From Candidatus Methanoperedens sp. (GTDB lineage: Archaea > Halobacteriota > Methanosarcinia > Methanosarcinales > Methanoperedenaceae): DNA of 64,000 bases. Location of the stretch: the NCBI GenBank assembly GCA_026552975.1, contig JAPMTR010000063.1:1-64000 (forward strand), given 5' to 3'. The notes under the pieces are model-generated. The model ran no database searches, was not told the origin of the DNA, and worked only from the letters and a program-made list of their open reading frames with translations. A program made the translations under genes and the position numbers. Below, piece after piece: positions 34,565 through 44,824 of the stretch; positions within the stretch are counted from its first letter, which is position 1; each line of letters opens with the position of its first letter.

Positions 34565-37138
34565 TTATACTGTAATACTAATAGTGGTTGTGCCAGTATT
34601 TCCTCTGCTATCTGTGACTGTTGCCGTTACATTGTATGTGCCAGCACTCAATGGAGTGAACGATGCTGTATTGAGTAGTCCGGATGTTACAACAACTGCT
34701 GCACCAACTGGATCAGTTACTGCCCATGCTATTGTTCCGGTCAAACCAGGGGCATATGTTGGGGTACCTGTCAAAGTGATGGCCACATTCACACCGCCTG
34801 GGAGTGTGTTGGTTATACCCACAGTCGGAGCTGCTGTCGTTGCCGGTGTCACAAAGTACGGTCTCATCATCTCATTGTCCTCATGGTCAATGATATGGCA
34901 GTGCCAGACATATCCATGGCTTCCTGCTGGGCTTGGATTGAATGGATAGTACAGGTTCGGACCAGCGATCGGTTTATCAAGTGGTGCAAAGCGCAGTGCA
35001 ATGCGTGTGACCTGACCGGGGAGACAAACCACAGTATCCTTCCATCCTCTTTCGTTCTGGTTTGGTGGCAGTATCGGACTGGCCACTCCGGCAGTGTTCA
35101 AGAATGGTGAGACTGCTGGATTTCCACCTATATAACCATCAGCGTTTGGTGTTCCATAAGCATTGGGTGGACCGTATTCAGGGATCCAAGCTGTTGCGCC
35201 TAGAACTTTAGCGGCGAAAGCTGCGTCATAAGCTGCCTGATAGCCCACAGCATCCAATACCTGTCTGTTCATGAGCTGGAACTGTACAAGGTGCAGATGC
35301 ATCGGGTGAGCATCAACGGTGAGATTTACGATCTCCCATATTTCTGTGGTACCTTCTGTTACATTTTCAGTACTATAAGGTCCTGGATTTGGTCCGGGAT
35401 TGATCTGTGTCGAACCTGGCAATAGACCAATCAAAGTCGCAGGTGTATTTCTTGTATCATATTGCATTCCATCCCATTTGGTGTTATTGAGCAACATCTC
35501 AAGAGGCATGGGTATACCACCTGGTGATAGCGGGTTCAGCCATTCATTCAAGGTAAGGGATCTCTTTACTGTAGGAACAACACCTGGAGTAAGTACCCCT
35601 GTCGTTGGGTTCACGAGCCTGACGATCACATTTGTACCTGTTCTCAGTGCAGTTTTCTTTGAGGGATCGAAAGTAGTATCCCAATTTGCTGGGACTTTCT
35701 TGGGTGCAGTTCCAATTCTAAACTCCAAAATCTGGTCTGTTGTACCTCTTACCACAGGTAATCCTGCAGGATAGGGTGTTGCAGCATTATTATTTACAAC
35801 GACTTTAATTATTTTAGTCTGGTCTGATAATTTGAAGAAATCAACAATCACGTCCGCTCGTTCACCGGGAGCAAGAAGGAGATTGTTAACCTTTACCGGG
35901 AAGTCAAGGAGACCGCCGTCAGTACCGATCTGCCAGAAATCTACTTTTGACCTGAGATTATAGAAGCGGGCATTCGATCCATTGACGAATCTCAATCGAT
36001 ATCTTCTTGGTTCAACATTCAAATAGGGCCATGTCTTTCCATTCACAACAATGGCATCACCGAAGAATTCAGGTACCCAGAATGGATGTTCCGGGTTTAC
36101 GCCAACATCGGGGAAAAGTAACTGTCCCTTATCGTCAAACATCCTGTCCTGAATCGCTATCTCAATTTCATATGGTCCGGTCGGTAATGGCGGAGCTACT
36201 GCTGCTTCGAGGTTATCTCTTATAAAATAGAATGCTGCCAAACCTGCATGAACATTAAGACGTGTTGCTCCAAGGGCATGGTCATGGAAGAAAAGTGTTG
36301 TACTTTCCTGGACATTGGGATATGTATATGTAGCTCCGGTAGCGGAAGCACCTGGATCTGAATAATACGATGGACCCTGTGGGTGGGGAGCAGGTACAGG
36401 TACCCCTGTCACTGGGTCTAATGGTTGATTTGTAAACCATGCATCTGGTCCTCCATCGATCGTTGCAGGGACTTCTCCACCATGCAGGTGGACTACTGTT
36501 GGTACATATGATCCAGAATATGGTAGCATAGTCATTCCATTTCCATCAGTATCCGCTCTATGTAATGTCTGGTCCACTGTCAGGGTTTTATACAGATCAG
36601 CATTTAATTTATTGTCATAGATCATCTGAGTTGGAGTGCCTTTGGTTACTTCAACTGTCCTTGCTGGATAAAATTTGACATTATTGATATTATATGCCCA
36701 GAGATTTGTCAAATTAGCAGCTCCAGCAGCCAGGGGAGTTCCTGTCGAAAGTACCTGCTGTTTATGGATCTCCATTGAAACATTAATAGAGGGTGCTGAC
36801 ACCCTGGGAACATTAAATGGAAAACTCCCTGGTTGTCCAGTAAACCCAGGAACTGTTATTCCACCGGCTGGCCCAAAAACAGGCAGCGGATCAACATACT
36901 TGGGGATAGTTGTTGCCAATAAGGGTGTTTGTGGAACCTGGGTGGAAGCAAGAGCTTCGTCTATCATCCTGAGGCTACCCAATGATAACGCCCCTGCTGT
37001 CAGAGCCCCCATCTTTAAGAATGATCGCCTGCTCACTCTCATAAAATTGTTCTTTCGTAATTCAACTGAATTTGTGAAATTTTCTTTATCCGTTTCATCC
37101 ATATTCAAGTTTTTCACTCCGGTATTTCCAATTTTCAA
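34565..37138 (-). CDS. Tat-exported multicopper oxidase
   Basis: The 857 aa protein has a twin-arginine signal (SRRSFLKMGALTAGALSLG) preceded by a 32-residue N-extension; the inner ATG at Met-33 may be the real start. All four copper-binding boxes are present: VVHLHGG, FFHDHALG, HPMHLHLVQF and HGYVWHCHIIDHEDNEMM (HCH for type 1/type 3 sites plus axial Met). A bacterial-Ig/PKD-like domain of about 90 residues (after TPATTAAPTVG) closes the protein. Such enzymes oxidise metals (Mn, Fe, Cu) or organics. In anaerobic methane oxidisers they have been linked to metal-dependent extracellular electron flow. Substrate unknown. Confidence 0.95.
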   Translation of the reverse strand: MKIGNTGVKNLNMDETDKENFTNSVELRKNNFMRVSRRSFLKMGALTAGALSLGSLRMIDEALASTQVPQTPLLATTIPKYVDPLPVFGPAGGITVPGFTGQPGSFPFNVPRVSAPSINVSMEIHKQQVLSTGTPLAAGAANLTNLWAYNINNVKFYPARTVEVTKGTPTQMIYDNKLNADLYKTLTVDQTLHRADTDGNGMTMLPYSGSYVPTVVHLHGGEVPATIDGGPDAWFTNQPLDPVTGVPVPAPHPQGPSYYSDPGASATGATYTYPNVQESTTLFFHDHALGATRLNVHAGLAAFYFIRDNLEAAVAPPLPTGPYEIEIAIQDRMFDDKGQLLFPDVGVNPEHPFWVPEFFGDAIVVNGKTWPYLNVEPRRYRLRFVNGSNARFYNLRSKVDFWQIGTDGGLLDFPVKVNNLLLAPGERADVIVDFFKLSDQTKIIKVVVNNNAATPYPAGLPVVRGTTDQILEFRIGTAPKKVPANWDTTFDPSKKTALRTGTNVIVRLVNPTTGVLTPGVVPTVKRSLTLNEWLNPLSPGGIPMPLEMLLNNTKWDGMQYDTRNTPATLIGLLPGSTQINPGPNPGPYSTENVTEGTTEIWEIVNLTVDAHPMHLHLVQFQLMNRQVLDAVGYQAAYDAAFAAKVLGATAWIPEYGPPNAYGTPNADGYIGGNPAVSPFLNTAGVASPILPPNQNERGWKDTVVCLPGQVTRIALRFAPLDKPIAGPNLYYPFNPSPAGSHGYVWHCHIIDHEDNEMMRPYFVTPATTAAPTVGITNTLPGGVNVAITLTGTPTYAPGLTGTIAWAVTDPVGAAVVVTSGLLNTASFTPLSAGTYNVTATVTDSRGNTGTTTISITV

Positions 37139-37275: not shown

Positions 37276-37773
37276 TCATTTCATCCTGAACTTCTCGAAT
37301 CGCTCTTTCTTTGCCCTGCATATAGGACATAGATCAGGCGCCTCGTCTCGTGCGCATAGATACCCGCATACCTGGCATCTGTAAACTTCTACCATTTCTC
37401 CACCTCCTGCTCCTTTCTGTTCATTGATCGCTGGATAACCCTTTATGGAATATTCCCGGGGCCGCCTCTCTGGCACTGGCTCATGGGGCTTTCTCCCTGA
37501 GATCCATTCATCATTTACATACAGCGTGCACAGGCAGCATCCGAATTCGGCCAGATCAGCGTCACGGTAATTGCACGGGCAGATGATATCCATATCCTTA
37601 GAAAGTGTTCCGCTTGAGAGGCGGCAGGGACAAGACGGATAACCATATCTTTGTTCATTGTCCCACATTCCCTGAAGGATGTCCTGTATTTCAAGCTTAT
37701 CCGGATTGAATTTATAGCCTTCCTCCCGGGCTATTTTCTTCATTGAATCATACATCTCTTCTATTGTTCTCAT
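37276..37773 (-). CDS. Ferredoxin:thioredoxin reductase catalytic subunit with rubredoxin-like tail
   Basis: The 165 aa protein carries the FTR cluster/disulfide motifs: CPC near residue 48, a second CPC near 65, and a final CLC (in FGCCLCTLYV). The usual CHC is replaced by CLC, removing the His beside the active-site disulfide. The C-terminal 45 residues are a rubredoxin-like zinc/iron knuckle (CQVCGY ... CPICRAK). The protein uses ferredoxin electrons to reduce thiols. It overlaps the glutaredoxin gene by 4 nt and is last in a twelve-gene run beginning at 43868. Confidence 0.92.
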   Translation of the reverse strand: MRTIEEMYDSMKKIAREEGYKFNPDKLEIQDILQGMWDNEQRYGYPSCPCRLSSGTLSKDMDIICPCNYRDADLAEFGCCLCTLYVNDEWISGRKPHEPVPERRPREYSIKGYPAINEQKGAGGGEMVEVYRCQVCGYLCARDEAPDLCPICRAKKERFEKFRMK

Positions 37774-38027
37774 AAGCCAAGAGCCTCTTTCATTTTATCT
37801 TCATGGAACCCTATAATAACTTTTTTTCCAATGATGATCGTGGGAAATCTCCTGCTATCGCTTTCCTCCAGCATTTGCGATAGAACATCCTCTCTTTCGG
37901 TTCCCTCTAATTTATCAACATCCACATAATCGTATTCGATATTATTCTCTTTCAAAAATCGTTTCGCTGCGCTGCAATGAACGCATGTGCTTAACGTGTA
38001 AAGCTTTGGTTTAATATTCATTGTCAT
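37770..38027 (-). CDS. Glutaredoxin-like protein
   Basis: The 85 aa protein is a NrdH/glutaredoxin-type thiol carrier with active site CVHC near residue 15, a hydrophobic beta strand pattern and the cis-Pro segment RRFPTIIIGKKVIIGF. It probably accepts electrons from the adjacent FTR. Four-base overlaps on both sides couple it to the FTR gene and to porB. The pairing of a dithiol carrier with FTR and a ferredoxin-reducing enzyme gives a complete electron path within one operon, which is inference from gene order. Confidence 0.92.
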   Translation of the reverse strand: MTMNIKPKLYTLSTCVHCSAAKRFLKENNIEYDYVDVDKLEGTEREDVLSQMLEESDSRRFPTIIIGKKVIIGFHEDKMKEALGL

Positions 38028-38986
38028 GGTCCGTGCATCTCCCTGTGTTCTTCAGTGATAGCATGACGTTCATCGTGGGGCGCAATTTCGCAGACGTCGG
38101 GCGCGCCTTTTTCGCGGTAATGGAGGTTCCATTTTTTGCATACCCACATCTGGAGCTTATTTACATCTTCCTCGCTCATATGCCTGAACCGTCCCTGCAT
38201 ATTGAGATAATCCTTCACGGATCTCATCTTGCCTGGTTTGTAAGTGACCTTCTTTTCCCCATTCTCTACTTCATAAAGCGTCCACATCCCGCTTTCAACT
38301 GCTCTTTTTGTGACCTCGACTGTTTTTGAAGGATCCATCTTCCAGCCCGGGATGCATGGGGTGAACATATGCAGGAAACGGAATCCTTTCATATTTTTCG
38401 CTTTCTCGACCTTTCGTATGAAATCAAGAGGATGGCCTATCGAAAGTGTCGCATAATAAGGAACTTCATGAGCAACGACGATATCCCCCAGGTTTTTCTT
38501 GAACCGCTGATTCCCCTGGATCTTTGAACCCACAGGTGTGGTCGTTGTCCATGCGCCAAATGGAGTCCCTCCGCTTCTCTGGATACCTGTGTTCATATAG
38601 GCTTCATTATCAAGGCAGATATATATGACATCTTCGTTTCGCTCTGCTGCCCCTGACATGCTCTGAAGTCCAATGTCATATGTTCCGCCATCTCCGGCAA
38701 ATCCAACAACTGTCACTTTTTTCCCTTTCTTTTCAAAAGCTGCCTGCATCCCGGTTAGACATGCGCCGGTATTTTCAAAAGCAGTATGGAAGAAGGGGAC
38801 TTTCCAGGCGCCATACGGAAAAGTTGTCCCAAACACTACAGCGCAGCTGGCCGGCACATAAACAGCCGTATCTTTCCCGAGAACTCTTATCGCGTTCCTG
38901 ATAGAAAGTGCCACCCCGCAACCCGGACATGCAGTGTGGCCTGATGTGAATAGATTAACATCAGAAAGTTCTTTTATCTTTATCAT
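38024..38986 (-). CDS. porB: Pyruvate:ferredoxin oxidoreductase beta subunit
   Basis: The 320 aa TPP-binding subunit has the cluster-ligand pair CPGCGV near residue 20, VVFGTTFPYGAWKVP, the TPP diphosphate/Mg site GFAGDGGTYDIGLQ and NEAYMNTGIQRSGGTP, and FTPCIPGW with a further cluster cysteine. It ends in a His/Glu-rich tail (HDERHAITEEHREMHG). With the alpha and fused gamma-delta subunits it oxidises pyruvate or a related 2-oxoacid to acyl-CoA and CO2, giving reduced ferredoxin, or runs in reverse for carbon fixation. It overlaps porA by 4 nt. Confidence 0.94.
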   Translation of the reverse strand: MIKIKELSDVNLFTSGHTACPGCGVALSIRNAIRVLGKDTAVYVPASCAVVFGTTFPYGAWKVPFFHTAFENTGACLTGMQAAFEKKGKKVTVVGFAGDGGTYDIGLQSMSGAAERNEDVIYICLDNEAYMNTGIQRSGGTPFGAWTTTTPVGSKIQGNQRFKKNLGDIVVAHEVPYYATLSIGHPLDFIRKVEKAKNMKGFRFLHMFTPCIPGWKMDPSKTVEVTKRAVESGMWTLYEVENGEKKVTYKPGKMRSVKDYLNMQGRFRHMSEEDVNKLQMWVCKKWNLHYREKGAPDVCEIAPHDERHAITEEHREMHGP

Positions 38987-40155
38987 ACTGTTTCACCCCG
39001 TGTGTTGTGCCAGTTTACCTCTTTTACTTTTTCACCTTTTGCAGCCCTGGAGGTCAATTCGAACATCTTGAATATCTGTTCTTCTGTAACATCCCGCCCC
39101 CCAAGTCCTGCTAGATGGTTTATTACAGGTATCGTCATGCCAAAAAGCGCTGATCTGACCTCATTATAGACCGGGCCGCCTCCATGATATGATATCGAGC
39201 GGTCAAAAACACCAAGAGCGTCAAGGTTTGAAGCTAATTTTTTCAGATCCTCGCAAGGGAACGGCCTGAAAAACCGAAGTTTTATAATGCCTACTTTTTC
39301 ACCCTTCTGCCGCAGTTCATCCACGACTTCACGGGAGGTACTTGTTACTGTCCCCATTGTTATAAGCGCGATCTTTGCGTCATCCATCCTGTAGGTGTCC
39401 ACAAGACCGCCGTAATCCCTCCCGAATTTTTGCGCAAATTCAGTATTTACTTCCCTGATCACATCTTTTGCACACTCAAAAGCCCCGACTGTCTGCCTTC
39501 GCAATTCCATAATATACTCAGCAGGCATAAACGTCCCGATCATGGCTGGTCTTTCTGGATCAAGAACAATATCAGGTTCGTAAGGTGCAAGTAACGAATC
39601 AACATCCTCCTGGGACGGGATATCAACTGGTTCAACTGTATGCGTAAGCACAAAACCATCAAGACAGGGCATAACAGGTAAAAGTACACGTTTATCCTCA
39701 GCGATCCTGAAAGACTGGATTATCATGTCAAGAGCTTCCTGGTTATCTTCTACATAGAGCTGCAGCCACCCGGAATCGCGAGCGCCCATTGAATCATTAT
39801 ACTCACACCAGATGCCTGGAGGACCTCCAAGAGTGCGGCTGGCATTTGCCATTACCACAGGAAGACGAAGGGGAGCTATAGCATAAAGCATCTCATGCAT
39901 GAATGCCAGTCCCTGGGAAGAGGTTGCAGTAAAAACCCTTGCACCTGCGGCTGATGCTCCGGCTGCTGCGCTCATGACGCTGTGCTCAGATTCCATGGTA
40001 AGGAATTTTGTATCCAGTTCCCCGTTATTTACAAAATCAGCGATATGTTCTATTATGAGCGTCTGGGGGGTTATAGGAAAGGCTGGCACGACGTCAACGC
40101 GGCACAGTTTTGCCCCGATCGCAACGGCATGATCACCAGTTATTACTTTCTTCAT
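38983..40155 (-). CDS. porA: Pyruvate:ferredoxin oxidoreductase alpha subunit
   Basis: The protein binds the substrate/TPP pyrimidine. Visible landmarks are [52 protein letters not shown] and [13 protein letters not shown], with a Rossmann-like C-terminal half ([26 protein letters not shown]). I chose the ATG at 40155 ([12 protein letters not shown]), which overlaps the gamma-delta gene stop by 4 nt as ATGA. An ATG at 40194 would extend into that gene by 13 residues. It is part of the same transcript. Confidence 0.94.
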
Positions 40156-41051
40156 GATCGCGCCCTCGTCATTTTTATAGCATCGACAGGGCATTCATTG
40201 GCGCATATGCCACATCCCTTGCAGTAATCATAATTTGTCATCAGGTCGCCCCGGTCAGATATCCTGATAATTGTTCCTTCAGGGCAATAGAACCAGCACA
40301 GAAGACACATCGTACACTTTTCTTTATTCCTCAAAGGACGAAATGTCGCCCAGCCAGAAACTTTATTTTCAATAAAACTGCCAGGACCTATAAGACCAGC
40401 TTGTGTTTTACCTTCAATAAGAGCGCCACCTATCGGAATATCCTGGTACGCAGGCAGCCATTGTTTTTTTGACTCAAGTTTTTTAATTCCCCTGCTTGTC
40501 CCTATAATGGTCTTTTCATAAGCCATCCTTGCAGCAAGGGCATTTCGCTCCCCTGCCCTTTCACCCAGCTTCCCGCCAAATTTCTCCTTAATAGAGCTTT
40601 CCAGGGATTCGATAGTAATAAGTCCGGTGGCCTTTGCAAATGCTCCAAGGATCGCGGTATTTGTGATCGGGGCCTTAAGTATTTCAAGTGCTATGGACGT
40701 TGCATTGACCGTAGCTGTTCGAAAGCTTATCCCGAGGTCAATGTCATCCGGATCTTCTTTTGAATTAATAATTACCATGCCGTCTGGTTTTAATCCTGAA
40801 ACGACATCTATGGTATCAAGAAGAGAATCGTCAAGCACTATCACACAATCAGGTGCATAGACCTGCGTTTTACTGTATATTTTTTTTGCATCTATCCGCG
40901 TAAATGCAAGGACAGGCGCACCACGGCGTTCAGCGCCAAAAAAAGGAAAGGCTACAGCATAATTATCTTCATTTACTGCAGCCTCTGCGAGAGTCTGGGC
41001 AGCCATGACCGCACCCTGACCGCCTCTGCCATGGAACCTGACCTCGAACAT
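40152..41051 (-). CDS. Fused gamma-delta subunit of pyruvate:ferredoxin oxidoreductase
   Basis: The 299 aa protein joins a gamma domain (residues 1-180; [20 protein letters not shown] at the start) to a ferredoxin-like delta domain. The delta domain has two 4Fe-4S motifs: [14 protein letters not shown] and [15 protein letters not shown]. The linker includes [16 protein letters not shown] typical of PorD. The fusion puts the electron exit clusters on one chain. Neighbours are porA downstream and a DUF2180 gene 5 nt upstream. Confidence 0.93.
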
Positions 41052-41056
41052 CCCGT

Positions 41057-41278
41057 TCAGTCACTGCCTCCGGGAATAACAATAGTTGCACAGTCATCGC
41101 ATAAGAATCTTGGAAGACCTTTCTTAAGCATTTTCACAGGTACAGGAAAGCCTCCTTCCCATATTGGAAGATCTACCCTTTTTGCGTGATCCATGCACAA
41201 TCCTTTGCCGCACATTATACACAGGGAAACTGCCTCTTTTTTTGCGTTGCTTACAGCGCAATCATAACATCTCAACAT
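41057..41278 (-). CDS. DUF2180 Cys-rich zinc-binding protein (copy 2)
   Basis: The protein has Cys pairs [20 protein letters not shown] and FLCDDC, a treble-clef/zinc-ribbon arrangement typical of DUF2180 archaeal proteins. The ATG at 41278 starts exactly at the family beginning MLRCYDC with a GGTGAT ribosome site; an ATG at 41308 would overlap the preceding copy. Function is not known, though the family occurs in methanogen-type archaea. It is adjacent to a second copy and upstream of porGD. Confidence 0.85.
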
Positions 41279-41282
41279 AGTA

Positions 41283-41495
41283 TCACCAGTTCTCCTTAAG
41301 GGCTTCATGACATGGGGGGCACATTATTCGTTTCAGGTTCTCCACATCTTTTTCAAGTCTTACAGGATAATCTCCTTTCCAGACAGGTGTTTCCTCATAG
41401 TTCGCATGTTCCATGCAAACGCCCATTCCACATACGATACATGCTGCCACTGCATCAGTATCTTTTCCCATTTTAGCGCAAACATAACATTTCAT
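41283..41495 (-). CDS. DUF2180 Cys-rich zinc-binding protein (copy 1)
   Basis: This copy has the same pattern (MKCYVC, ACIVCGMGVCMEH, IMCPPC) and about 40% resemblance to the next gene, so the pair arose by tandem duplication. I take the ATG at 41495 because AAGGAGA lies about 8 nt before it, inside the end region of the upstream mcrC-like gene; the earlier ATG at 41516 would overlap that gene. Its product may bind zinc or iron and act as a small redox-sensitive adapter, but this is a guess. Confidence 0.85.
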   Translation of the reverse strand: MKCYVCAKMGKDTDAVAACIVCGMGVCMEHANYEETPVWKGDYPVRLEKDVENLKRIMCPPCHEALKENW

Positions 41496-41502
41496 ATTGT
41501 TT

Positions 41503-42186
41503 TCATTCTCCTTCACTTGCCATTAATCCTTCATTTATTAACAGATCGCTTCTGACCGCATGTATCGATTCTATTTTTTCACTCAGGATCTGGCGTATGA
41601 CTTTTGCCAGTTCATTTAATTTGATCCTGGAACAGGTCTCACCGCGTGTTATACCGCTTACGATACCAACTACAGTGCCTTCTGTTTCTGGATTCCTGGG
41701 CTTTACGAATTTAGTTTTTATACCGGATTTTGCGAAATCCTCAAAATCAATTGGATATTCACAGGCAACGACCGCGGGGATGTTAATATATTTTAACATC
41801 TTCTTGGTTTTTGAAATGATATGAGAATTTACATTTCCCATATTCAATAGAACGATCTTATGCCGGGCTATCTGTTCGATCTCTTTTGCGGTTATCCCGA
41901 AATTCGCCCCATATCCTTTTGAGATATTGGAGGCTCCCACATCATCCATCGGAATGCCGGCGCCTGCTTCAAGAACTAATACGCTTACCTGTATGCTTTC
42001 CCTGCGCAGGCCCTGTGTGATCTCACAGACTGGTTTTGTGATATGTCTTCTTCCTGGCGTCATTGCTATAGCAACAACATCAGGTCTTGCGGCTTCTGAC
42101 AGGGTACCGCGCTGGGCAAGACCTCCGCCTCTGCCCATGCCCATGGTCTCCCTGCAGTCCACTAATTGCGTCTCCCTTCCGAACAT
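41503..42186 (-). CDS. mcrC: McrC-family protein (methyl-coenzyme M reductase accessory)
   Basis: The 227 aa protein matches McrC throughout: VDCRETMGMGRGGGLAQRGT, VAIAMTPGRRHITKPVCEIT, VLVLEAGAGIPMDD, the GITAKEIEQIARHKIVLL segment and PIDFEDFAKSGIKTKFVKPR, then GIVSGITRGETC. McrC is part of the activation complex that returns methyl-coenzyme M reductase to the Ni(I) state. In methanogens it usually lies inside the mcr operon; here it is in a redox/oxidative-stress run. Cys residues (VDCRE, PVCEIT, ACEYP, TCSRI) may be thiol sensitive. It could be the sole McrC or a paralogue. Confidence 0.9.
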   Translation of the reverse strand: MFGRETQLVDCRETMGMGRGGGLAQRGTLSEAARPDVVAIAMTPGRRHITKPVCEITQGLRRESIQVSVLVLEAGAGIPMDDVGASNISKGYGANFGITAKEIEQIARHKIVLLNMGNVNSHIISKTKKMLKYINIPAVVACEYPIDFEDFAKSGIKTKFVKPRNPETEGTVVGIVSGITRGETCSRIKLNELAKVIRQILSEKIESIHAVRSDLLINEGLMASEGE

Positions 42187-42188
42187 AT

Positions 42189-42608
42189 CTATTTCTTTAT
42201 TGAAAGTGTGTTTTCCCAGGTATCAGCGTGACCTTCTTCATCCGAAAGAATTTCCTCAAGCATAAGCCTGGTCGTGGGGTCATTTTCCTCGATGGCAAGC
42301 TTGATGTGTTCTTTGTATTGCTTGATGGCCGCATTCTCTTTTGCCAGGTCGTCCTGAATCATTTTCTTAAGATCTCCGCCTTCAACGATAGGTTCAGGTT
42401 TCTTTACCGGGGTACCGCCAAGATAGACGATGCGTTCACCGAGCTTCTCAGCATGTCCCATCTCATCCTTTGCTGTTGATTTAAAGATCTCAAGGATAGC
42501 CGGGCTTTCCATTCCTTCTCCCTCATAATGGTGTTTCATATACTGTATGATCGCGGCCAATTCGCCTTCCCTGTCTTTATTCAATGCATCTATTATTTTC
42601 TGGCTCAT
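42189..42608 (-). CDS. Bacterioferritin-like four-helix protein
   Basis: A ferritin-like diiron four-helix bundle. Helix 1 has EGELAAIIQYMKHHYEG, helix 2 STAKDEMGHAEKLGERIVYLGG, helix 3 DLAKENAAIKQYKEHIKLA and helix 4 MLEEILSDEEGHADTWE, giving the Glu and ExxH ligands. It probably stores iron or removes peroxide. The ATG at 42608 has a GGAGA ribosome site 5 nt before it. It ends 2 nt before mcrC, so the two are tightly coupled. Confidence 0.9.
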   Translation of the reverse strand: MSQKIIDALNKDREGELAAIIQYMKHHYEGEGMESPAILEIFKSTAKDEMGHAEKLGERIVYLGGTPVKKPEPIVEGGDLKKMIQDDLAKENAAIKQYKEHIKLAIEENDPTTRLMLEEILSDEEGHADTWENTLSIKK

Positions 42609-42639
42609 TGTATTCTCCAATTTTATTTTTCAGCAGTTA

Positions 42640-43050
42640 TTATTTTCTTTTTCCGCCCATGCAGCCATGACCATGACCGCCCCCATGACCGCACTGTTCT
42701 TCATTTCCATCGATCATTTTAAGGGCTTTCCTGCATATTGCAACTCCAGGGGCACCGGAAGTTATAAAAATTACATTCATTGTTTCCATTATTTCTTCTT
42801 TTGTCGCACCATGGTTAAGGGCACTTCTCATCTGTGATTCACAGCATGCTTCACATCTTTGTGATGCCATTATTGCAAGTGCCATCAGGACTTTTACTTT
42901 TCCGGAAAGGGCTCCATCTTCCTGGATGCCGTCATCGCATTTCTTATAATGCTGGAACATTTCCGGATTCATTTCACTCATCATGTTCATGATCTCGGGG
43001 GTAAATCCCATCTTGCCTTCAATACTGTCCATTACTTTTTTTGGTTCCAT
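42640..43050 (-). CDS. AhpD-like carboxymuconolactone decarboxylase family protein
   Basis: The 136 aa protein has the AhpD-type signature MALAIMASQRCEACCESQMRSALNHGATKEEIMETM with a CxxC redox pair (residues around 66-69) and the GAT segment. AhpD-like proteins are peroxidase-partner disulfide reductases. The C-terminus is a short His/Gly/Cys-rich tail (CGHGGGHGHGCMGGKRK) that could bind nickel, zinc or iron. The GGAGAATAAAC ribosome site is clear. It lies between the rubrerythrin-like and bacterioferritin-like genes of the operon. Confidence 0.9.
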   Translation of the reverse strand: MEPKKVMDSIEGKMGFTPEIMNMMSEMNPEMFQHYKKCDDGIQEDGALSGKVKVLMALAIMASQRCEACCESQMRSALNHGATKEEIMETMNVIFITSGAPGVAICRKALKMIDGNEEQCGHGGGHGHGCMGGKRK

Positions 43051-43086: not shown

Positions 43087-43467
43087 TTAATCATTTTCCT
43101 GTAATCTGGATAAAATATTCTTGATCCCTTCTTTATGTTTGGTCTCATCTTTTAAAGATTCTTCAAAAAACTGGAAAGCTTCATCATTTCCTTCAGTAAA
43201 AGCTATTTTTGCAGCGCGAGCTTTATCCTTTTCTGCTTTCATCTCACCTGCAAGCATATTGACGAGATTTGTCTTTGTGTCCTTTACCTTTCCTAACAGA
43301 GATGCAAATTGGACCGCGTGGGATGCTTCTTCCATTGCGACGTCAAATAAATAATTCGCGATCTCAAGATGTCCCTCTTCATCTGCCTTTTTTGACATTG
43401 CCAGATATAATGCAATATCATTGGATTCTGATTCAAACGTTTTTTCCATTATTTCAATTATTTGCAA
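43087..43467 (-). CDS. Rubrerythrin-like ferritin-fold protein
   Basis: The 126 aa protein is a four-helix ferritin-like domain without a rubredoxin tail. It shows FESESNDIALYLAMSKKADEEGH, VAMEEASHAVQFASLL, and EESLKDETKHKEGIK, with ExxH motifs for a diiron site. Such proteins reduce peroxide using rubredoxin or similar carriers. The start is a TTG with a GAGG ribosome site 6 nt before it; an ATG at 43449 is an alternative. It is the second gene of the run led by DUF302. Confidence 0.85.
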   Translation of the reverse strand: MQIIEIMEKTFESESNDIALYLAMSKKADEEGHLEIANYLFDVAMEEASHAVQFASLLGKVKDTKTNLVNMLAGEMKAEKDKARAAKIAFTEGNDEAFQFFEESLKDETKHKEGIKNILSRLQEND

Positions 43468-43475
43468 TTTAACCT

Positions 43476-43868
43476 CTATTGAAGGTCAATTACTTTTACA
43501 AGACCTTCTTCTGCTTCCCTGGCAAGTTTGCTGAGCTTATCATAACCAGGAAGTGAACTTGCCGTGCTTAAAGCCACGGTTGGTTTATATAGTGATATCT
43601 TTGTTTTTCCTTTATCGGAATAAACGATTATCTTGCAGGGAAGGATCATCCCGATCTGTTTATTTATCGAAAGTCCCTGATGTGCAAGACCAGGACTGCA
43701 AACATCAAGAATTATATAATCGTCAGATTCAATATTTAACTTTTCTGCCATGATCTTTTTTACATCAATGACACTCAAAACGCCCCATTTGTTCGCTTTC
43801 AGGTCTTCTGTCAGCTTCTCGACAGCGGATTTTACGTTTAGTTTTGTTTCTTTTGTGTAATCTAACAT
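43476..43868 (-). CDS. DUF302 protein, first gene of the redox run
   Basis: The protein is a DUF302 domain: an alpha/beta fold with VLSVIDVKKIMAEKLN, the central YIILDVCSPGLAHQGLSINKQIGMILPCKIIVYSD and the ending SLPGYDKLSKLAREAEEGLVKVI. The paired Cys (DVCSP, LPCKI) could bind metal or sense redox state. The ATG at 43868 with GGAGG ahead of it fits the promoter (TTATAAAA at 43907-43914) better than the ATG at 43892. It probably heads the twelve-gene transcript down to 37276. Function unknown. Confidence 0.85.
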   Translation of the reverse strand: MLDYTKETKLNVKSAVEKLTEDLKANKWGVLSVIDVKKIMAEKLNIESDDYIILDVCSPGLAHQGLSINKQIGMILPCKIIVYSDKGKTKISLYKPTVALSTASSLPGYDKLSKLAREAEEGLVKVIDLQ

Positions 43869-43905
43869 CACTTTCCGCCTCCGTACCTTCAAATGTCTTT
43901 CAAGT

Positions 43906-43999: not shown

Positions 44000-44824
44000 A
44001 TGATCCGTCTTGGAAAGATCGCTTTTGCCAATTGTGATTTTCCTTATTATGCCCTGGAAAATGGAAAAGTAGACTCAAATAATATCGAAATCAAAGAAGC
44101 TCATCCAGTTGAACTTGCTCGAATGCTCTCAAATGATGAATTAGACATAAGCCCTATTTCTTCGATCATGTATGCGAAACGCAATGATCTTCTCATACTG
44201 CCTGGCCTATCGATAACCTCAAATGATTTTACAAAGAGCGTACTGATATGTTCGAAAGGAAAATTAGACCTTTCCGATTTTGAAGGAAAAACGCTATGCA
44301 TTCCTGAGACCACAGCAAGTTCTGCAACTCTTATCAAGATAATATTATGGATAAAAGGGATAAATGTGAATATAAGGCAATGTCCGGGGACAGATATTGA
44401 CAGGATGCTAAAACAGGGAGATGCAGCTCTTTTGATCGGGGACAGCGCCATCCATGCCATAGGAAAATACCAGATCGTCGCTGACCTTGGAAATGTCTGG
44501 AAAAGTTTGACAGGAAAAAAAATGGTTTATGCTCTCTGGGTAGTGGGGAAAAAATATGCAACGAAGCATCCGGATAAAGTGAGATATGCACTAGAAAAAC
44601 TGAAGAGTTCAAAAAATTACGCATATAACCATATAGGACAGATCGCTAATTCCATAGGAAAACAAAAAAACATAGACTGCAGTTTCATGAAAGATTACCT
44701 GCATACATTAAATTATGATCTGGATAAAGAGAGTGTAGAGAGTCTTGAACTTTATTTCAAGTATGCGAAAGAGTGCGGGATCGTGGGAGATGTATCATTA
44801 AGATTTTTCGATAATTATAAGTGA
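44000..44824 (+). CDS. mqnA: Chorismate dehydratase MqnA
   Basis: Makes 3-enolpyruvyl-benzoate from chorismate, the first step of the futalosine route to menaquinone. The 274 aa periplasmic-binding-like fold begins RLGKIAFANCDFPYYALENG and has DISPISSIMYAKRND near residue 50, KTLCIPETTASSATL near 95, LLIGDSAIHA near 145 and VYALWVVGKKYA near 175. Methane-oxidising Methanoperedens-type archaea are reported to use menaquinone, unlike most methanogens. The downstream cupredoxin gene is separated by 22 nt; mqnC is 2.6 kb further. Confidence 0.88.
   Translation: MIRLGKIAFANCDFPYYALENGKVDSNNIEIKEAHPVELARMLSNDELDISPISSIMYAKRNDLLILPGLSITSNDFTKSVLICSKGKLDLSDFEGKTLCIPETTASSATLIKIILWIKGINVNIRQCPGTDIDRMLKQGDAALLIGDSAIHAIGKYQIVADLGNVWKSLTGKKMVYALWVVGKKYATKHPDKVRYALEKLKSSKNYAYNHIGQIANSIGKQKNIDCSFMKDYLHTLNYDLDKESVESLELYFKYAKECGIVGDVSLRFFDNYK

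Follow-up and report, generated by a model that had tools for sequence, protein, structure and literature searches.

A detached mcrC gene within a conserved iron/redox gene block of Methanoperedenaceae

Introduction

Why is the gene for McrC, a protein involved in activating methyl-coenzyme M reductase (MCR), found among iron and redox genes in Candidatus Methanoperedens, and does it encode the ordinary activation subunit or something else? The question was raised by a first-pass annotation of a 64,000-nt stretch of DNA (here called the window). MCR is active only with its nickel in the +1 state, so keeping or restoring that state decides whether methane can be formed or consumed. For Methanoperedens, which uses nitrate or metals, encounters with oxidants are more frequent than for most methanogens. 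Concrete sites for testing how MCR is protected or restarted in methanotrophic archaea are offered by a new McrC motif and by a conserved link that joins an activation subunit to repair enzymes and to an iron-storage protein already characterised.

Results

Identity of the protein

The open reading frame was confirmed exactly as first proposed:

41503..42186, minus strand: mcrC, 227 aa, ATG start

Its product scored 288.7 bits against NCBIfam TIGR03264 (methyl-coenzyme M reductase I operon protein C), above the curated equivalog cut-off of 213.5 bits, and also passed PF04609 in the profile search. A phmmer comparison with the McrC of 8s7v gave an E value of 3.8e-65. When the predicted model (AlphaFold; mean pLDDT of 69, a modest confidence, particularly across the tail) was submitted to Foldseek, the best match was the McrC chain 8s7v_I (E 3.8e-19, TMt 0.79), followed by chain H of the same entry, which we take to be Mmp7.

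The structure of the activation complex shows which McrC residues hold two of its nitrogenase-like clusters, and that R177 of M. maripaludis contacts McrA (PMC12176620). All of them were kept in the window protein: C11 and C54 (FeSII), H48 and H122 (FeSI), plus R181; their M. maripaludis counterparts are C12, C55, H49, H118 and R177, respectively. The four ligands and the R177 equivalent were invariant across the 38 rows of the McrC alignment. On these profile, ligand and fold grounds, the product is a true McrC with the known cluster-holding residues kept, in agreement with the first-pass annotation.

Copy number and phylogeny

The genome (2.57 Mb, 93.6% complete) contained one TIGR03264 match over the cut-off, mcrC on contig C117, and its only other PF04609 match was methanogenesis marker 7, a separate gene on contig C10. 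Methanoperedenaceae genomes with a TIGR03264 match over the cut-off likewise had one each; by sequence, the relatives are Ca. Methanoperedens (ANME-2d), 78 to 94% identical. In a tree of McrC sequences alone, the Methanoperedenaceae proteins formed a single clade (100/100) among the McrC proteins of Methanosarcinales, the mutual order of the other families not being resolved. Since the window protein falls within this single clade, it is the orthologue and not a paralogue.

Position of mcrC relative to the mcr operon

McrA was encoded once in the genome, on contig C95, in the gene order mcrB-D-G-A without mcrC. The usual, though not required, location within mcrBDCGA was thus not found, mcrBDGA lying on C95 and mcrC on C117, which bears out the earlier suspicion that the operon link may have been lost; a search of the genome for mcrBDGA and a second McrC recovered the former and no copy of the latter. 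All intact Methanoperedenaceae mcr loci had the same BDGA order, with no room for mcrC. Just upstream of mcrB and on the same strand lay a gene for DUF2098, a component of the activation complex (G000:C95:12536-12802; L117). Contig C10 carried a cluster in the order A2-mmp3-6-5-15-17-7, encoding A2, Mmp3, Mmp6, Mmp5, Mmp15, Mmp17 and Mmp7, with names assigned from translations and gene order. mcrC, put forward earlier as the main evidence of methane metabolism, is not the only such evidence, the genome also having mcrBDGA, A2 and marker genes.

In ANME-2a/b/c and Methanocella, mcrC was located within mcrBDCGA, and in Methanotrichaceae it was also outside the mcr operon, beside unrelated genes such as that for phosphoglycerate mutase. 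Because of this distribution, the ancestral place of mcrC was probably inside the operon, and the gene would have become detached at least twice. Detachment in the genus Methanoperedens is already published: PMC9081873 places mcrC apart from the mcr operon in Ca. M. nitroreducens (ANME2D_00875) and in ANME-1 (BSM_08630). ANME2D_00875 is presumably the mcrC of our M. nitroreducens locus L017.

Some assemblies of relatives call for separate comment. An mcrA near mcrC in L018 is unsafe as evidence of linkage, consisting of a 127-base contig overlap followed by the 3' end of mcrA. The starts of L018 and L144 (positions 1-201 of each), apparently from the same genome, have their first 127 bases in common, within mcrA, and diverge thereafter, which suggests two mcrA alleles or copies; a transposase lies in the 2.5 kb that separate one of these mcrA 3' ends from the mcrC block downstream of it. 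In the Methanoperedens genome G012 (L118; contigs C72 and C154), a full mcrA (85% identical) is followed by mcrG, in the order A-G; pieces of another mcrA are also present, yet there is one mcrC, and with a contamination estimate of 7% a mixed bin is possible.

The gene block around mcrC

The neighbours of mcrC, all on the same strand, were as follows:

43476..43892, minus strand: DUF302 protein (PF03625), at the upstream edge of the block; kept in 10 of 23 relatives
43087..43467, minus strand: rubrerythrin-like ferritin-fold protein (PF02915)
42640..43050, minus strand: AhpD-like/carboxymuconolactone decarboxylase family protein (PF02627)
42189..42608 (or 42620), minus strand: mini-bacterioferritin (mBfr), orthologue of Mper-mBfr (PDB 9qq4)
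41283..41495, minus strand: DUF2180 protein a (PF09947), with an alternative GTG start at 41516
41057..41278, minus strand: DUF2180 protein b (PF09947)
40152..41051, minus strand: fused PorC-PorD of a 2-oxoacid (probably pyruvate):ferredoxin oxidoreductase (POR)
38983..40155, minus strand: PorA-like subunit
38024..38986, minus strand: PorB-like subunit
37770..38027, minus strand: glutaredoxin (PF00462); kept in 20 of 23 relatives
37276..37773, minus strand: ferredoxin:thioredoxin-reductase (FTR) beta chain fused to a rubredoxin domain, at the downstream edge; kept in 20 of 23 relatives

The block order was therefore rubrerythrin, AhpD-like, mBfr, McrC, two DUF2180 proteins, PorCD-A-B, glutaredoxin and FTR-rubredoxin. 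Its genes (37276 to about 43467) were kept beside mcrC in 17 to 26 of 23 to 26 relatives, whereas those directly outside either edge were kept in 0 to 1 of 17 to 22. Judged by this gene order, the block has sharp edges and is conserved throughout Methanoperedenaceae, in contrast to its flanks, an arrangement that appears to be undescribed. In M. nitroreducens (L016, L017) the block had no POR.

Spacing within the block was short. The claim that mcrC is coupled by 2 nt to a bacterioferritin-like gene was confirmed, and the same 2-nt spacing between mBfr and mcrC was found in most relatives. Two DUF2180 genes follow mcrC in tandem, and whether mcrC overlaps or abuts them, as had been stated, depends on the start codon: in the window, translation from the ATG at 41495 leaves a gap of 7 nt, and the GTG at 41516 gives an overlap of 14 nt. 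Across relatives, the mcrC-DUF2180 spacing was about 8 to -29 nt, again by start codon, and that between DUF2180b and PorCD was 3 to 15 nt. Scans for sigma-70 promoters and terminators gave matches at about chance level.

Tandem DUF2180 pairs were widespread in Methanosarcinales without mcrC. In Methanosarcina an AhpD-like gene followed the pair, and in the one locus examined (L195) a desulfoferrodoxin gene came after it. Because such pairs occur without mcrC, and in Methanosarcina with an AhpD-like gene, mcrC seems to have joined a pre-existing redox module built around DUF2180/AhpD-like genes. No mention of DUF2180 was found in the literature searched.

Three further observations concern the surroundings of the block. 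A short contig (L027:1-1438) has neither DUF2180 gene, and its DUF302, AhpD-like and ferritin genes seem to be shortened and fused to one another, through either an assembly artefact or real decay. Just outside the block, 34565-37138 of the window encodes a large, 857-aa protein that resembles multicopper oxidases and has a PKD domain as well as a twin-arginine signal; its gene does not lie beside mcrC in relatives. At 44000-44824, divergent from the block, is a menaquinone-biosynthesis-type gene (PF02621), found in the same place in one relative only.

The mini-bacterioferritin neighbour

Mper-mBfr is the crystallised mini-bacterioferritin of Ca. M. carboxydivorans (9qq4), which has ferritin activity in vitro and is abundant in BLZ2 biomass (PMC13168243). 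In BLZ2 (L009, 9579 onward), the exact 9qq4 sequence was encoded directly upstream of mcrC. The position of mBfr as immediate upstream neighbour of mcrC appears to be undescribed. In one genus (g2; L028, L030), mBfr was absent altogether, and mcrC with its AhpD-like and DUF2180 neighbours, as well as the McrC tail described below, was retained; mBfr is therefore not essential to the link between mcrC and the block. A second ferritin-like homologue, 45% identical, was present at G000:C91:17165-17554.

A palindrome upstream of mBfr

In most relatives the palindrome TCATTGATNNATCAATGA was present between the AhpD-like gene and mBfr:

42609..42639, minus strand: AhpD-like/mBfr gap, the palindrome site in most relatives; none in the window genome

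Among 34 genomes searched with one mismatch allowed, the palindrome lay 16 to 31 nt (mostly 24) before the mBfr start in 18. The other sites were five with a single mismatch elsewhere and one further exact site (G018) at a contig end, where its position relative to mBfr could not be placed. The reversed control pattern had no sites in the 34 genomes. Compared with its relatives, the window genome has lost the palindrome. An RNA hairpin was not supported, since folding was no better than that of shuffled sequences, and for this reason a putative operator is more likely. A genome-wide stress regulon was not supported either, because there was mainly one site per genome and the window genome had none. 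The palindrome appears to be undescribed.

The C-terminal tail of McrC

The tail carried a motif specific to Methanoperedenaceae:

41524..41562, minus strand: tail motif HAVRSDLLINEGL, McrC residues 209-221

In the alignment, its family consensus, HAVRSDLLIxEGL, was present in all Methanoperedenaceae McrC proteins and absent from all outgroups. Across 27 sequences, the pairwise difference at codon position 2 was 0.043 in the motif, the same as in the core (0.043), compared with 0.24 and 0.29 in the stretches flanking it; codon position 3 varied freely throughout McrC, motif included. Selection therefore acts on the protein sequence of the tail, position 2 being constrained in the motif and position 3 free, and by this codon pattern the motif is under purifying selection.

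The pattern occurred once in the whole genome and, among 200 genomes of the class, once each in 23, all Methanoperedenaceae, at sites coinciding with mcrC; none of the 200 had it outside this family. A search of the motif against the PDB gave no match, and as far as the literature search showed it appears to be undescribed. The tail is most likely a docking site, as a prediction, for a family-specific partner or for a surface of the activation complex. mBfr is an unlikely partner, since genus g2 lacks mBfr and retains the tail.

Discussion

This is the orthologous and sole McrC of the organism, encoded in a redox/iron block and provided with a conserved tail; taken together, the data make it probable that it acts in trans and that its supply is tied to iron and redox state. 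In the Methanoperedenaceae lineage, mcrC left mcrBDCGA, the probable ancestral position, seems to have joined the block and gained the C-terminal motif. McrC has been demonstrated to act in trans in Methanococcus (PMC9584954), and by analogy the Methanoperedens protein would do the same, relaying electrons via its two cluster sites to the nickel of F430 in MCR and working with Mmp7, Mmp17, Mmp3, A2 and DUF2098, all encoded elsewhere in the genome. McrC is predicted to bind MCR with these partners and to support Ni(I) activation. Transcription behind mBfr and ahead of POR may tie McrC supply to iron and redox state, which would allow (re)activation of MCR following oxidative or nitrosative exposure and at times when the 8Fe clusters can be supplied with iron. 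POR could provide reduced ferredoxin to the FTR-rubredoxin/glutaredoxin pair and perhaps, as a suggestion, to activation itself.

From gene context we infer a functional coupling of mcrC to iron/redox management. The earlier proposal that mcrC expression follows a stress/redox programme is supported at the level of gene context, namely the redox/iron neighbours conserved in the family and the Methanosarcina cluster, and the expression programme itself is presumed. The label "stress operon" may be too narrow, as POR belongs to central carbon metabolism. A bolder version, in which MCR activation has been rewired so that McrC comes from an iron/redox-recovery operon under a single-site palindromic operator, with the tail docking a new partner and MCR restarting after oxidants, is put forward tentatively and is open to considerable doubt. 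If true, these nitrate- and metal-respiring methanotrophs could restart MCR after oxidative exposure.

It is rather unlikely that the relocation was neutral, mcrC having landed behind a strong promoter among neighbours functionally unrelated to MCR activation and the order persisting because of the cost of breaking up a polycistronic operon. A redox context is not required for detachment, as mcrC of Methanotrichaceae sits beside unrelated genes, and the action of McrC in trans (PMC9584954) together with the abundance of mBfr in BLZ2 biomass (PMC13168243) would fit such a course. However, nearly all the other genes of the block encode redox, iron or thiol proteins, the edges are sharp and kept family-wide, and genus g2, devoid of mBfr, still has mcrC with the AhpD-like and DUF2180 genes.

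Iron provisioning rather than oxidative repair, with mcrC co-expressed with mBfr because McrC and Mmp7 carry three 8-iron clusters and iron release would be matched to cluster assembly, strikes us as improbable. The 2-nt spacing to mBfr in most relatives, the three [8Fe-9S-C]-type clusters of the activation complex (PMC12176620) and the ferritin activity of mBfr in vitro (PMC13168243) all speak for it, but mcrC remains in the block of genus g2 without mBfr, the rubrerythrin, AhpD-like, glutaredoxin and FTR proteins indicate redox repair, and no cluster-building gene (NifB) was found within the block. Finally, a specialised paralogue, that is, a divergent second McrC that has a role of its own in addition to a normal copy elsewhere in the genome, has the extra C-terminal motif in its favour and is nevertheless extremely improbable and was rejected, the gene being single in this 93.6% complete genome and in each family genome with a match over the cut-off, the tree placing the protein as the family's orthologue, and the other PF04609 match being marker 7.

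Comparison with known systems

The relocated orthologue that we favour can be set against four known systems. The McrC of M. maripaludis (8s7v chain I, PMC12176620) is 52% identical to the window protein over the aligned core and shares its four FeS ligands, the R177 contact and, by Foldseek, its fold; the window protein differs in a wedge loop 5 residues longer (about residues 85-90), in the position of its gene away from the mcr genes and in the extra conserved C-terminal tail. ANME2D_00875 of Ca. M. nitroreducens and BSM_08630 of ANME-1 show the same detachment of mcrC, and the part of PMC9081873 that treats it mentions neither the block, the mBfr neighbour, the tail motif nor the palindrome. 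Mper-mBfr is precisely the protein encoded just upstream of mcrC in BLZ2, although neither mcrC nor an operon is mentioned in its description (PMC13168243). The Methanosarcina cluster (L195) resembles the mcrC block in its tandem DUF2180 and AhpD-like genes and differs in the absence of mcrC and in having a superoxide-reductase-type protein in place of POR.
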